Below, piece by piece: positions 854 through 29,206 of a stretch of 43,876 nt of DNA. Origin of the DNA: an uncultured Pelagibacteraceae bacterium (GTDB lineage Bacteria; Pseudomonadota; Alphaproteobacteria; Pelagibacterales; Pelagibacteraceae). Position 1 is the stretch's first letter; each line of letters opens with the position of its first letter. Where the stretch lies: contig CAJXBA010000009.1 of NCBI GenBank assembly GCA_913050185.1, forward strand, positions 1 to 43,876, read 5' to 3'. A model generated the notes under the pieces. The model was not told where the DNA came from, did no database searches, and saw only the letters and a program-made list of their open reading frames with translations. Made by a program: the position numbers and the translations under genes.

Positions 854-2215
854 CTACTTCTTAAATTCCAATACCTTCGATTCCTTCGTTGGTTTCTGGT
901 CCATTTTTTCTAAACCGGAAACAACTTCTGTATCAAGTATCTTTGCATATCTTTCAGTTGTTTTGACATTTGAATGACCTGCAGCCTTTTTCACAACCAT
1001 GATATTTTTTGATTTATCAAGCAGCAAGGTCAAGAAGGTATGACGACATTGTTTCGGTGGAATGTATTCTATTCCCGCCAATTTCAAAACTCTCTTCCAG
1101 GTCCTTCTTACTGAACCAAAATAACCTTTGGTACATTTCTCTCCCCTACTGTTTTTCTTTCCAAAATTATAAGAAGGGAAAACATACTCCTTCGTGCTTT
1201 CCTTCCATAATAACGGACCGGAGGTTAACCTTTCCTGATGGATCAGTTGAAGAAGTTTTAATGCGTTTGGTCCTATGTTGTAAGTTTTTGCACCGACCTT
1301 ACTATCTTCAAAAGATATTTTCTTTAATGGAAAGCTTATTTGTTTCCATTTAATCTTATTGCCTTCACTAACATTTCTGCGTCCCGTTAAAATCCACCAA
1401 GCAATTATTAAACAAGCGACCAGGTTCAAGGCTTTTTCAGTATAATAATTATAATGAATCTTGCCGGTTCTTCCGTCAGTTTTTAGAACAATAGACAAAA
1501 GATTTTCACGTTGGGTTTCGGTCATAATTCTATTATCTTCTTTATCCGGGGACCAGTGCTTCTTCTTCATCTTAATAGGATTTTTAGCCAACTCACCGAC
1601 TTCAACTCCGTACTTAAAAATAACATTTAAAAACTTAATCACTTTGTTAGCAACGGAGGGGCTTTTTAATCTAATTATGTCGTGCAGCCCCTTCATATCT
1701 TCTTTAGTGATTGAGGATAGTTTTTTGTGCTGAATGCTATACGGATTTTCTTTTTGTACTTGTAGAATCGCCGGCTTTATAGATTTTTTATTCACCCAAA
1801 CATCAATGCAAGTTTTTACAACTTTGATAGTTTTTGGCTTATATCCATAGTTCTTATTGAATCTTTTAGAATAGAATTGCTCGGTTAATTCATGCAAATT
1901 TAATTCAGCTTTTAATTCTCGTCTAGCAATTACCGGATCCTTCCCGTCTAGTATAGCAGCACCATATCTTTTTGCTTTAGCCCTAGCTCCCGGAACATTT
2001 AAGAGCGTAAAATTGCCAAGTTTAATTCTCACCCAATTTTTCTCGTTCTTCGGCTTGTAGCAATAATAAAAGTTCTTGGTCCCGGAAGTTTCAACATAAA
2101 TCCTTAACCCGGGGACTTCACTATCACCGACAGAAAAAAGTTTGTCTTTTTGTCTTAACTTTTTAATGTGGCTATCACTTAATCTTACTCTTCGCTCAAC
2201 GTGTTTTATTACCAT
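854..2215 (-). CDS. P4-type tyrosine site-specific integrase
   Basis: This enzyme integrates and excises the element by breaking and rejoining DNA at the tRNA-Lys site. The 453 residues show the usual P4-integrase order. An N-terminal arm-binding DUF4102-type domain spans about residues 10-105 (VGDSEVPGLRIYV and LGNFTLLNVPGARAKA), a core-binding helical domain follows to about 215, and the C-terminal catalytic domain completes the protein. Catalytic residues visible are Arg in TGRRN, the second Arg in KQCRHTF, His in AAGHSN and Tyr in TTERYAKI. The first His of the usual HxxR motif is Lys here (KQCR), a variation seen in some active family members. The ATG at 2215 is preceded by AGGA at good spacing. 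It lies 166 bases from the tRNA-Lys 3' end and is transcribed away from it, so its promoter lies next to the attachment site. Confidence 0.95.
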   Translation of the reverse strand: MVIKHVERRVRLSDSHIKKLRQKDKLFSVGDSEVPGLRIYVETSGTKNFYYCYKPKNEKNWVRIKLGNFTLLNVPGARAKAKRYGAAILDGKDPVIARRELKAELNLHELTEQFYSKRFNKNYGYKPKTIKVVKTCIDVWVNKKSIKPAILQVQKENPYSIQHKKLSSITKEDMKGLHDIIRLKSPSVANKVIKFLNVIFKYGVEVGELAKNPIKMKKKHWSPDKEDNRIMTETQRENLLSIVLKTDGRTGKIHYNYYTEKALNLVACLIIAWWILTGRRNVSEGNKIKWKQISFPLKKISFEDSKVGAKTYNIGPNALKLLQLIHQERLTSGPLLWKESTKEYVFPSYNFGKKNSRGEKCTKGYFGSVRRTWKRVLKLAGIEYIPPKQCRHTFLTLLLDKSKNIMVVKKAAGHSNVKTTERYAKILDTEVVSGLEKMDQKPTKESKVLEFKK

Positions 2216-2380: not shown

Positions 2381-2456
2381 TGGTGAGCCGTATTGGATTC
2401 GAACCAATGACACCTTCCTTAAAAGGGAAGTGCTCTACCAACTGAGCTAACGGCCC
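2381..2456 (-). tRNA. tRNA-Lys(UUU)
   Basis: A 76-base cloverleaf with CCA encoded in the gene. The acceptor stem GGGCCGT pairs with ACGGCTC with one G-U pair, the D arm is GCTC/GAGC, and the anticodon stem CTTCC/GGAAG encloses loop CTTTTAA with anticodon TTT. The T arm is ATTGG/CCAAT around TTCGAAT, and the discriminator is A. The gene is intact although an integrase lies directly beyond its 3' end, so the integrated element restores the tRNA sequence at its border. It lies 67 bases downstream of tgt on the same strand. Confidence 0.97.
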
Positions 2457-2523: not shown

Positions 2524-3636
2524 TTAAATTATATTGCTATATTTGTTATAAAAATCACCAAAAGTATTATTTTTTATAGCTTCTCTAATTTTTTTCATTA
2601 AATCTTGATAAAAGAACAAATTATTCATTGTTAAAATCATAGAAGCCAATATTTCATTAGAATTAATTAAGTGATTAATATAACTTTTAGAATATGAATT
2701 AAGACTGCGATAGCTCATTTTTTGGTTAATTGGAGAATCATCTTTTTGATATTTAGCATTTCTTAAATTAAGTCTGCCTTCCCATGTAAATGCCAAACCA
2801 GTTCTTCCCGATCGTGTAGGTATAACACAATCAAACATATCAATACCACGCTTCACTGCTCCCAAAATATCAGATGGGGTACCTACACCCATTAAATAAC
2901 GAGGTAAATTTATAGGCATAAAAGGAACAATATCATCAAGAACCTTAAACATTTGTTTTTGAGTTTCTCCTACTGCCAGGCCGCCCAACGCATAACCATC
3001 AAAAGAAATTTTATTAAGATTATCCAAACTTTCCATTCTTAGATCTTTATAAATACCCCCCTGAATTATTCCAAATAAAGCTTTTCTTGGATTATTACCG
3101 AATTCATTTTTTGATCTCTCGGCCCAACTACTTGAAAGTTTTATTGATTTAATGAGTTTCTTTTTATCATTAGTTAATTTGGGACATTCGTCTAAGACCA
3201 TGACTATATCAGAATTAAGGTTTTTTTGAATTCTAATACTATCTTCCGGACTCAAAATAAAACGTCTACCGTCTATATGAGAATTAAAAATTGCACCTTC
3301 TTTTTCATCAATTTTGACTAATTTTGATAGAGACATAATTTGGAAACCGCCAGAATCAGTTAGTATAGGCAATCTACAATTCATAAACTTATGTAGTCCA
3401 CCAACTCTCTTTATTCGATCAACACCAGGCCTAATCATTAAATGATATGTATTTGATAAAATTATTTGAGTACCACAAGAGATTAAATCATCAAGAAAAA
3501 TTGATTTGACTGTACCCTGTGTTCCAACAGGCATAAAAGTGGGGGTATCAATTAAGCCTCGATGAGTGCTAATAATACCAAGTCTTGCCGAATGATCCTC
3601 TTTCGAAAGATAAAAAGAAAACTTTTCGGAAGACAT
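2524..3636 (-). CDS. tgt: tRNA-guanine transglycosylase lacking the zinc site
   Basis: TGT exchanges guanine-34 of GUN-anticodon tRNAs for the queuosine precursor preQ1. The 370-residue length and TIM-barrel motifs fit the bacterial enzyme. The general acid/base Asp94 lies in LTDSGGFQ, the nucleophile Asp269 in DMFDCVIPTR, and GGLAVGE and RSGRTGLAF are also present. The structural zinc site at the C-terminus is missing. By alignment with the Zymomonas enzyme (Cys318, Cys320, Cys323, His349) the equivalents here are Met307, Tyr309, Leu312 and Asn338, with spacing and flanking residues (SYxxxYxxHL, FYQxLMxKIR) kept. The protein may therefore be folded without zinc or have shifted function. In many alphaproteobacteria queA precedes tgt; here the cyclophilin gene is directly upstream by 15 bases and queA is not in the window. 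Confidence 0.93.
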   Translation of the reverse strand: MSSEKFSFYLSKEDHSARLGIISTHRGLIDTPTFMPVGTQGTVKSIFLDDLISCGTQIILSNTYHLMIRPGVDRIKRVGGLHKFMNCRLPILTDSGGFQIMSLSKLVKIDEKEGAIFNSHIDGRRFILSPEDSIRIQKNLNSDIVMVLDECPKLTNDKKKLIKSIKLSSSWAERSKNEFGNNPRKALFGIIQGGIYKDLRMESLDNLNKISFDGYALGGLAVGETQKQMFKVLDDIVPFMPINLPRYLMGVGTPSDILGAVKRGIDMFDCVIPTRSGRTGLAFTWEGRLNLRNAKYQKDDSPINQKMSYRSLNSYSKSYINHLINSNEILASMILTMNNLFFYQDLMKKIREAIKNNTFGDFYNKYSNII

Positions 3637-3651
3637 GAATAATATTAAATT

Positions 3652-4206
3652 TTATTGAGAAGAAAGACTTATAATTTTGTCAGGATCTGATACTTCGCCA
3701 TTTGCACCTTCTCCCCTCTTAATTAAGTCGACAAATTCCATACCCACGATTACTTTTCCAAAGACAGTATACTGTCTATCTAAAAAAGGAGACGCCTTAA
3801 AACATATAAAAAATTGACTATTAGCGCTGTTAGGATCTGATGAACGAGCCATAGATAAAGTTCCTCTATCATGCGGCAAATTACTAAACTCTGCTTTTAA
3901 ATTTGGATATTTAGAACCTCCGGTGCCTGCTCTTTTAAGATCATAACTTTCTAAAAGTGAATTGCCATATTCAACGTCACCAGTTTGTGCCATAAATCCA
4001 TCTATCACCCTATGAAAAACTACTCCATCATATTTTTTTTCTTTGGCTAATTGTTTTAATCTTTTTACATGGCCTGGAGCAACGTCATCGAATAATTCAA
4101 GAACAACGTCACCATCTTTTAATTTCATGATCATAATATTTTCTTGTGCTTTAACCTCTGTGATAAAAAAAATAAAAATTAGAATTGGAATAATCTTTTT
4201 TATCAT
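3652..4206 (-). CDS. Secreted cyclophilin-type peptidyl-prolyl isomerase
   Basis: This enzyme catalyses cis-trans isomerisation of prolyl peptide bonds during protein folding. The 184 residues begin with a signal peptide (about residues 1-20, Lys-Lys then a hydrophobic run ending VKAQ), so it should act in the periplasm. The cyclophilin core follows, with the catalytic FHRVIDGFMAQTGD segment, the SMARS/SQFFICF strands and FLDRQYTVFGKV. Its start overlaps the stop of coaD by four bases (ATGA type), and tgt follows after 15 bases, so it is part of the gyrA-coaD-ppi-tgt transcription unit. Alphaproteobacteria often have a secreted and a cytoplasmic cyclophilin side by side here; only the secreted one is present. 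Confidence 0.95.
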   Translation of the reverse strand: MIKKIIPILIFIFFITEVKAQENIMIMKLKDGDVVLELFDDVAPGHVKRLKQLAKEKKYDGVVFHRVIDGFMAQTGDVEYGNSLLESYDLKRAGTGGSKYPNLKAEFSNLPHDRGTLSMARSSDPNSANSQFFICFKASPFLDRQYTVFGKVIVGMEFVDLIKRGEGANGEVSDPDKIISLSSQ

Positions 4207-7872: not shown

Positions 7873-10749
7873 ATGGTCAAAAAAATCGTTATTAAAGGGG
7901 CAAAAGAGCACAATTTAAAAAATATTTCGCTTGATATTCCGAAAGACAATTTCATTGTAATAACAGGCCTATCTGGATCAGGAAAATCATCTTTAGCATT
8001 TGACACTATTTACGCAGAGGGTCAAAGAAGGTATGTGGAAAGCCTTTCAGCTTACGCGAGGCAATTTTTAGACAAAATGAAAAAACCTAAAGTTGATTCA
8101 ATTGAAGGATTGAGTCCTGCTATTTCAATAGAACAAAAGAATACTCCCAAAAATCCTAGATCTACTGTCGCCACCGTTACTGAAATTTATGATTATATGC
8201 GAGTATTGTATGCAAGGACTGGCACTCCCTTTTCTCCATTTACAGGTAAACCTATTAAATCACAAAGTGTTGCAGAAATTGTTGACAAAATAAAAAAACT
8301 GCCAAAAAAAAATACTATTTATCTAATTTCACCCATTATTAGGGGTAGAAAAGGTGAATACAAAAAAGAAATAAAGGATTTTAAAAGAAGAGGTTTTCGA
8401 AGAATAAAAATTGATGGCATTTATTACAATATAGATGAAGTGCCTCAGTTAAACAAAAAAATAAAACATGATATATCAATTGTAGTTGATAGAATTATTA
8501 TAAATAACGAAATGGGAAATAGATTAGCCGAAAGTGTTGAAATGGCTCTTAATTTATCTGATGGATTGTTATTCGTTGAGTATGAAAATGAAACCCTTCC
8601 TAAAAAATTTAGAAAAATAGAAAAAATTATTTTTTCATCAAAATTTGCTTGTCCAGAAAGTGGTTTTACAATCGAAGAAATTGAACCAAGACTATTTTCT
8701 TTTAATAGTCCTTATGGTGCATGTGAAGAATGTGAAGGCATAGGATTAAATTTAAATGTAGATGCAAACTTAGTTGTTCCGAATAATAAAAAAAGTTTAG
8801 CTGATGGAGCTATTGAACCTTGGTCAAAAACAACTTCATTTTATTATGCTCAAACGTTAGCTTCTTTAGCTAAGTACTATAATTTTTCTTTAGATGAGCC
8901 GTGGAAAAAATTACCTCAAAAGATAAAAGATATAGTGCTTTACGGTTCTCATGATGATGAAATAAAATTTAATTATGACGATGGATATGAAAAATATACA
9001 ACTAATAAATCATTTGAGGGTGTAATTAATAATTTAGAACGAAGATACTTGGAAACAGAAAGTGAATGGAAAAGAGAAGAAATTTCCCAATATCAAAGTG
9101 AATCAGATTGTGAAAAATGCAAAGGAATGAGATTAAAAGATGAAGCTTTATGCGTAAAAATAGATAATTTAAATATTAGTGAAGTTACAAAAAAATCTAT
9201 ATTTGAAGCAAAAAAATGGTTCGAAAGCTTAAATAATACTTTGCCCGAAAAAGAAAAAAAAATTGCTCAGCATATTTTAAAAGAAATCAACGAAAGATTA
9301 GATTTTTTGCTCAATGTAGGTTTAGATTATTTAACATTATCAAGAGAATCTGGAACTCTATCTGGTGGAGAATCACAAAGAATAAGATTAGCTTCTCAAA
9401 TAGGATCGGGTTTAACCGGCGTACTATATGTTTTGGATGAACCTTCGATTGGTTTACATCAGAAAGACAATATCAAGTTAATTAATGCTTTAAAACGACT
9501 AAGAGATTTGGGTAATACAGTCATAGTAGTTGAGCATGATACTGAAACAATGCAAAATGCTGATCATATAATTGATCTTGGCCCCAGAGCTGGAAATGAA
9601 GGAGGGAATATTGTTGCGCAAGGAAATTTAAAAAAAATAATCGACAATGAGAATAGTATTACTGGAAACTATTTATCAAGAAAAATGAATATTTATGTTC
9701 CTAAAACAAGAAGACTAGCAAAAAACGAAAAATATTTAGAAATTTTAGGCGCCACTGGCCATAACTTAAAAAATATAAATCTCAAAGTACCACTAGGTAC
9801 ATTTACTTGTGTGGCAGGTGTGTCAGGTAGTGGCAAATCTACGTTAATACTGCATACTTTGTATAAAGCTTTAAATTTAATGTTAAATAATAATAAATCT
9901 AGAAAACTGCCAAAACCATTTAAAAGTTATAAGGGTATAGAAAGAATAGATAAAATTATAAATATAGATCAATCTCCTATAGGAAGAACACCAAGATCGA
10001 ATCCTGCTACTTATACAGGAGCTTTTGGACCGATAAGAGATTGGTTTGCAAATTTGCCTGAATCAAAATCACGCGGTTATAAAGTTGGAAGATTTTCATT
10101 TAATGTTAAAGGCGGAAGGTGTGAAGCTTGCGAAGGTGATGGTGTGATAACTTATGAAATGCATTTTTTGCCTGATGTATATATAGCCTGCGATGTGTGT
10201 AAAGGAAGTAGATATAATCGTGAAACTTTGGAAATCAAATACAAAAATAAAAATATAGCTGATATATTGAGTATGACGGTAGACGAAGGATGTGTTTTTT
10301 TTGAAAATATTCCTGCCATAAAAACTAAATTAGTTACTTTAAAAAAAGTCGGTCTTGGCTACATAAAAATAGGCCAACAAGCCACTACTCTATCTGGTGG
10401 TGAAGCGCAAAGAATAAAACTAGCCAAAGAATTATCTAAAAGATCAACGGGTAGAACCATGTACATTTTAGACGAACCAACCACAGGATTGCATGCTCAT
10501 GACATTAAAAAGCTATTAGAAATCCTACAAGCTTTTGTTGATCAAGGAAATACTGTTATTGTTATAGAACACAATTTAGATGTAATTAAAACGGCAGATT
10601 GGATAATTGATATGGGGCCAGAAGGAGGTATTAGGGGTGGCCAAATAATTGCTGAGGGTAATCCAGAACAAATATGTGATATACCTAACAGTTATACGGG
10701 AAATTTTTTAAAAAATGTTATCAATACAAAGCTTAAAATATCAGCTTAA
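7873..10749 (+). CDS. uvrA: Excinuclease ABC subunit A
   Basis: UvrA is the damage sensor of nucleotide excision repair and loads UvrB on lesions. The 958 residues carry two ABC ATPase modules. The first Walker A is at residues 32-40 (GLSGSGKSS) and the second around residue 650 (GVSGSGKST). Two LSGGE signatures and two Walker B motifs (LDEPSIGLH and LDEPTTGLH) are also present. The zinc modules include the C-E-x-C-E-G pair after FSFNSPYGA and the C-E-A-C-E-G/C-x-x-C pair in the second half. One Cys of the first module is Ser (CPESGF), as is common in alphaproteobacterial UvrA. It is divergent from ssb, and a puuD-like gene follows after 50 bases with its own candidate promoter. Confidence 0.98.
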
Positions 10750-29130: not shown

Positions 29131-29206
29131 TCCTCGGTAGCTCAGTTGGTAGAGCAGTTGACTGTTAATCAATTGGTCGCAGGTTCGAGTCCTGCCCGAG
29201 GAGCCA
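29131..29206 (+). tRNA. tRNA-Asn(GUU)
   Basis: A 76-base cloverleaf with encoded CCA. Acceptor TCCTCGG pairs with CCGAGGA. The anticodon stem GTTGA/TCAAT encloses loop CTGTTAA with anticodon GTT, and the T arm is GCAGG/CCTGC around TTCGAGT. The discriminator is G, normal for Asn. Its G34 makes it a potential substrate of the TGT encoded in this window. The 3' end lies five bases from the stop of the convergent XRE gene. Confidence 0.97.

Follow-up and report, generated by a model that had tools for sequence, protein, structure and literature searches.

The window analysed here is a stretch of 43,876 nucleotides from an uncultured Pelagibacteraceae bacterium (contig CAJXBA010000009.1). On its minus strand, positions 2524–3636 hold an open reading frame of 370 codons with an ATG start, which is the tgt gene for a tRNA-guanine transglycosylase (TGT) without a zinc site. 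The gene is flanked by a tRNA-Lys gene (2381–2456, minus strand) on one side and a cyclophilin gene (3652–4206) on the other, the latter separated from tgt by a gap of 15 bases (3637–3651, minus strand). Further along, ARAGORN identifies a tRNA-Asn (GUU) at 29131–29206 on the plus strand, which is presumably one of the expected G34 substrates of the enzyme. Adjoining the tRNA-Lys gene, positions 854–2215 (minus strand) encode a tyrosine integrase with an arm DNA-binding domain (Pfam Phage_integrase and Arm-DNA-bind_3), and a small reading frame near it (492–821) has no Pfam family. Together they may represent the terminus of an element integrated at the tRNA-Lys gene and severed by the window edge. 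The UvrA of the window (7873–10749, plus strand) reads CPESGF at its first zinc module, which normally has C-x2-C, and one Cys looks replaced. This may be ordinary for alphaproteobacteria.

The TGT scores 443.6 bits against TIGR00430, for which the curated cut-off is 306.75, and 460.7 bits against the Pfam TGT family (PF01702). Residues 4–364 align with the Zymomonas TGT in the PDB (1ozm) with an E value of 5.5e-120. Residue by residue, this alignment is gap-free around the zinc region. Opposite the CxCxxC motif and the later His of the Zymomonas enzyme, the window TGT has Met307 in the place of zinc ligand Cys318 (ATG, 2716–2718), Tyr309 in the place of Cys320 (TAT, 2710–2712), Leu312 in the place of Cys323 (CTT, 2701–2703) and Asn338 in the place of His349 (2623–2625), all on the minus strand. 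Both catalytic residues are kept in the same alignment, the general acid/base Asp94 (3355–3357, minus strand) and the nucleophile Asp269 (2830–2832, minus strand). The base-binding motif GGLAVGE is found at residues 218–224 (2965–2985, minus strand) and is of the preQ1 type by the motif assignment of PMC10723273. The four replacements, the intact frame and the two retained aspartates, all claimed in the first-pass annotation, are confirmed by the alignment, the codons and the TIGR00430 match. A zinc-type TGT has a Cys3His set (CxCxxC and a His, 31 residues from first to last), where the window TGT has Met, Tyr, Leu and Asn; by these residues it would not be classed as a zinc metalloprotein TGT.

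An AlphaFold2 model made from 54 rows, mixed relatives included, has a mean pLDDT of 91.4, and residues 301–340 reach 79, 87, 95 and 93 for each ten in turn. Its best match is the Zymomonas TGT (TM 0.96, 1.2 Å), so the predicted fold is the TIM barrel of this family. A control model made from 29 rows of zinc-incomplete relatives only has a mean pLDDT of 87.5, with 88, 94, 92 and 90 over the same residues, and its best match is again the Zymomonas TGT (TM 0.94, 2.0 Å). The confidence of the control model means that prediction of the fold does not depend on aligned sequences with a full zinc site; as AlphaFold ignores metals, neither model can show metal dependence or prove stability. No compensating positions were established by an uncorrected column scan, in which positions 25, 48, 56 and 336 differ with at most five independent pairs per position listed. 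The window TGT shares with the Zymomonas mobilis or E. coli type (TIGR00430, PF01702) the predicted fold, both aspartates, the GGLAVGE motif and a gap-free zinc region, but it lacks all four ligands and any Cys past residue 270. The TIM barrel and C-terminal subdomain are also common to human QTRT1/QTRT2, of which QTRT1, unlike the window TGT, holds zinc by Cys317, Cys319, Cys322 and a His (PMC6165067, in excerpt).

Zinc might still be held by other residues, and in other lineages one to three of the four places indeed keep a Cys or His. The Cys residues of the window TGT, however, are at 54, 87, 151 and 270, and the sole His near the zinc site is His322. A possible alternative metal site, Cys-x(1,2)-Cys within the last 95 residues, is present in just 2 of 114 incomplete proteins (L137 and L140), each of which has lost only one ligand. 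Retention of zinc by substitute residues is therefore highly improbable. The first-pass annotation had also named what would speak against the loss of the zinc site, namely a full Cys/Cys/Cys/His set at this locus or a second, normal tgt beside a decaying one. Neither is found: the window's genome (93.9% complete, 1.24 Mb) has a single tgt match and no second one, and 13 further genomes of the same genus are likewise without the full site. Sequencing or assembly error is ruled out, since many independent genomes share the ligand loss and the replacement sets of those 13 are different or overlapping.

The absence of a full site is widespread. We read 220 TGT loci, weighted to relatives of the window and of Rhizobium; Cys-Cys-Cys-His is present in 104 and incomplete in 116, fractions that are not unbiased because the loci come from the best or listed parts of the matches. 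(Loci collected for queA, transporter, QueC and QueF, L191–L208, are excluded from the 220, though four have a flanking tgt.) Equivalents of Asp94 and Asp269 are present in 218 loci, and the remaining two end before the first Asp. All 45 SAR11 loci lack the full site, as do 71 of the 175 loci outside SAR11. In the window's genus 13 of 14 loci have none of the four ligands and the remaining one has the His; counted without the window, these are 12 with none and the one with His. The other loci of the window's SAR11 family (f1) are incomplete in 15 of 15 cases and show assorted remnants, for example Val-Cys-Ser-His, Cys-Asn-Leu-His and Val-Lys-Leu-Asn. In the sister SAR11 family (f2) all 16 loci have Ser-Asn-Cys-His. 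Among the best 80 of at least 590 loci, the named ones closest to the window TGT, at 64–67% identity, belong to uncultured Pelagibacteraceae (L031–L039), which places the window in SAR11.

Outside SAR11, 23 of 70 named loci are incomplete; placed by title, these are 22 of 49 from alphaproteobacteria, none of 16 from other classes and 1 of 5 unplaced. They include Rhizobium, Mesorhizobium, Brucella rhizosphaerae, Xanthobacter, Caulobacter, Phenylobacterium and Brevundimonas. The class draw, picked from the best matches listed (360 of 387 genomes matching), gives 18 incomplete loci of 75, in 14 of 65 alphaproteobacterial families. All 30 loci of a Rhizobium-like family (f152) are incomplete; we take it as the Rhizobium family because the segment of its member G405 is almost identical to that of a named Rhizobium locus, and because named Rhizobiaceae cluster with the family in the tree. 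Other classes of Pseudomonadota have a full site in 39 of 40 loci picked among the matches listed. The fortieth (L271), counted as not full, has a shifted Cys-Cys-x-x-Cys in the zinc region. Compared with the window TGT, the zinc-incomplete enzymes of Rhizobiales and Caulobacterales are likewise ordinary TGTs apart from the loss of the Cys3His set, but they mostly keep the second Cys, some keep the His, and most lie beside queA. Total loss outside SAR11 is seen in one Hyphomicrobiales metagenome-assembled genome (L080), where Ser-Ser-Ala-Ile stand in the four places and queA is adjacent. Two loci (L083, L088) have a one-residue gap at the former zinc site in pairwise alignment, and the multiple alignment places both differently; a tgt match from the phylum draw (G631) has one internal TAA. 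With 116 of 220 loci short of at least one ligand, SAR11, Rhizobiales and Caulobacterales among them, the earlier statement that the site is nearly universal does not hold, and the premise that its loss is exceptional to the window's bacterium is wrong.

The number of losses was estimated on a gene tree of 95 rows less than 72% identical to each other, with the four ligand columns removed. Parsimony gives 11 label changes (10–12 over the bootstrap), and the well-supported branches alone force at least five. A tree of 209 rows, which omits short or partial rows, near-identical rows of the sister family (L019, L021–L023, L026–L030) and 40 loci of other classes, gives 11 changes as well; the exact count is soft, because it comes from a gene tree that contains AT-rich, compositionally unusual rows. 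A single ancestral loss is rejected on the gene tree, which may differ from the species tree: a tree that keeps all 32 incomplete rows together as a clade is worse by 291 log units (p-AU 8.2e-7). Among these 32 rows the first Cys is gone in 28, the third Cys in 29, the second Cys in 12 and the His in 12. The TGTs of the two SAR11 families are not sisters in the gene tree; their rows are AT-rich, and the fork holding both is drawn open.

The first-pass annotation proposed a search for queA, queF and a precursor transporter, which was carried out here. queA, which the first-pass annotation had noted as absent beside tgt, has no match anywhere in the window's genome. It is found in 0 of 29 genomes of the window's family, many of them incomplete, and in none of six relatives of that family at least 95% complete, five of which are single-contig. 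In the sister family 6 of 6 genomes have queA, and 15 of 16 loci carry it upstream of tgt, compared with 0 of 29 loci of the window's family (26 with more than 1.3 kb of upstream sequence). QueC matches in SAR11 genomes stay at or below 34.1 bits, against 220–265 bits in four of five comparison alphaproteobacteria, and QueF matches in 17 SAR11 genomes at or below 28.6 bits, against 106–114 bits in three of four comparison genomes; some of these weak matches exceed the Pfam cut-offs, which are low. Among those that do so are the single queF match of the window's genome and two of its three queC matches. The QueF-like frame is FolE (TIGR00063, 214.5 bits), the two QueC-like frames are MnmA and GuaA, and the third reaches 19.3 bits, below the cut-off. 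A PF02592 (YhhQ/QPTR) transporter is present in 26 of 29 genomes of the window's family, in the window's own at G000:C2:66998–67408. With tgt and PF02592 present, queA absent and QueC and QueF matches weak, the genome has the gene set of preQ1 salvage without Q synthesis. The tgt-only state of Pelagibacter, its GGLAVG pocket of the preQ1 type and preQ1 salvage have already been described or proposed (PMC10723273, in excerpt); the transporters found here fit that proposal.

The altered subdomain might instead permit a change of substrate, to queuine or another finished base or to another tRNA, as was also considered in the first-pass annotation. The zinc site of TGT, however, is located outside the base pocket. 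Of the incomplete loci outside SAR11, 66 of 71 have queA no more than 2.1 kb upstream and in the same orientation, compared with 60 of 98 complete loci (those with enough upstream sequence, other classes with other gene orders included). These incomplete enzymes lie mostly within apparent Q operons, and a tie between loss of the zinc site and loss of queA is unsupported. As QueA acts after preQ1 insertion, its presence beside such TGTs argues against a finished base. The missing queA of the window's family does have a parallel in queuine-salvaging Chlamydia, which also lack the gene; but GGLAVG marks preQ1-inserting enzymes, queuine salvagers typically have GG[LS][AS]G (both PMC10723273, in the part available), and the window's family has GGLAVGE in 28 of 29 loci and GGLAVGD in one. 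A switch to salvage of a finished base is hence unsupported, substrate change as a whole is quite unlikely, and loss of the zinc site and change of substrate appear not to be tied.

Alternatively, tgt could be a relic of a queuosine pathway that is otherwise lost, with the zinc site as the first part to drift. The lack of queA and the weak QueC and QueF matches would agree with such decay, and so would position 307, which lies at the 99th percentile of variability among 13 members of the genus (309 at the 89th). Positions 312 and 338 are moderately conserved, mostly as Leu and Asn. Against decay, the median dN/dS over 78 pairs of these members is 0.098, at a median dS of 1.52 that is near saturation, and 190 of 370 sites are invariant, both catalytic aspartates included. 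These values are as expected for a working protein in which only the metal has become unnecessary. We searched 40 genomes for tgt (the window's own, 22 of the same genus, one more of the family and 16 more of the order) and found a match in 31. The nine without a match all belong to the window's genus and are 55–78% complete, so that missing contigs are the likely cause, with gene loss possible in some. Absence from 9 of 22 same-genus genomes could be read as decay. Of the genomes with a completeness of 90% or more, however, which come from both SAR11 families and include the window's, all 14 have tgt, as have another five of five from the window's family that are 99–100% complete. In addition, the same loss occurs in the 66 loci that have queA next to tgt. 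The gene does not appear to be decaying, and functional decay is an unlikely account of the missing site.

The habitat of SAR11 bacteria is poor in metals, and in other protein families replacements that save zinc are known. This background favours an adaptation to low zinc, as suggested in the first-pass annotation, in which the ligands were dropped to save zinc in a zinc-poor ocean. However, the loss is equally common in soil and symbiotic lineages (Rhizobium, Mesorhizobium, Brucella, Caulobacter, Xanthobacter, and 30 of 30 loci of the Rhizobium-like family), and a marine SAR116 locus (L093) has the full site. Because soil and symbiotic lineages show the same loss, low-zinc adaptation is not needed as an explanation, and we regard it as very unlikely. 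The distribution found points toward no correlation between environmental zinc and loss of the site in TGT.

Sequence databases may annotate zinc conditionally in the TGT family. The zinc ligands of E. coli TGT were reportedly mutagenised in 1995 by Chong. TGT is said to require zinc for activity, with E. coli ligand mutagenesis cited (PMC9508795, 2022, in excerpt), and on that statement removal of ligands from a zinc-type TGT may well be harmful. The zinc domain has been called a hallmark of TGTs (PMC6165067, in excerpt) and the zinc-binding residues highly conserved (PMC4425180, in excerpt). We found no published report of TGTs without a zinc site in the open-access literature, and the main text of PMC10723273 makes no mention of zinc.

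Work on relatives suggests that such enzymes function. In the accessible part of PMC3568095, tgt mutants of Sinorhizobium meliloti lose their effects on HeLa cells and fix nitrogen less well in symbiosis, and addition of preQ1 rescues queC and queF mutants, not tgt mutants, in the HeLa-cell test. With preQ1 supplied at concentrations as low as 10 nM, the TGT of Bartonella henselae brings Q-tRNA back in an E. coli queDF tgt mutant, and tRNA of B. henselae itself has just trace preQ1 (PMC10723273, in excerpt). That the TGTs of these two species lack the full site is a good though indirect reading from their relatives (30 of 30 in the Rhizobium-like family, Brucella, Rhizobium). The same source groups Pelagibacter with Bartonella for preQ1 salvage without queA, and the window's bacterium shares with B. 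henselae a tgt, a PF02592 transporter, a pocket of the preQ1 type and the lack of queA. Three genomes of the Rhizobium-like family (G513, G585 and G430; 1.1–1.6 Mb) also have tgt and a PF02592 match without queA, and QueF matches are weak in G513 and G585. Their site is Ser-Cys-Ala-Asn, compared with Met-Tyr-Leu-Asn in the window.

From the ligand loss, its spread, the pocket and the selection, all read from sequence, we infer a metal-free, active enzyme: the tgt of the window is likely a bacterial-type TGT that folds and works without structural zinc, an end point of repeated loss of the zinc site. Since relatives have lost the site repeatedly while the gene stays intact, zinc is probably dispensable for the TGT of SAR11 and its relatives. 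The loss would have recurred several times in Alphaproteobacteria, chiefly at the first and third Cys. The small C-terminal subdomain would be held by ordinary packing in place of zinc, and position 307 would have been freed to vary. Across the window's genus, Ile, Leu or Val is the usual residue at 309 and 312 (Tyr309 in the window), and Asn is the usual one at 338. The enzyme of the window's family most likely inserts imported preQ1 at G34 of tRNA-Asn, -Asp, -His and -Tyr, and with queA gone the modification chain would end at preQ1. The tgt-only state and the proposed preQ1 salvage of Pelagibacter were known (PMC10723273, in excerpt). The window adds a new form of a familiar enzyme, with a broad pattern of evolution behind it, rather than a new kind of system.

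The wider statement, that TGT needs no zinc, that Alphaproteobacteria have dropped the site many times and that SAR11 combine a transporter with a metal-free TGT to make preQ1 their final wobble base, stands in our view at an even chance. If it is true, very abundant ocean bacteria would carry out a queuosine-type tRNA modification without any metal enzyme. The rule that TGT requires zinc (PMC9508795) would fail as a general statement, because 18 of 75 class-draw loci among the matches listed, in 14 of 65 families, are without the full site. The links that have been proposed between queuosine and the homeostasis of zinc would need room for lineages whose TGT cannot respond to zinc, and natural metal-free TGTs would serve the study of dimer formation and tRNA binding. 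A structural metal site is also seen here vanishing stepwise, mostly with the first and third Cys earliest, and with its intermediates still living.
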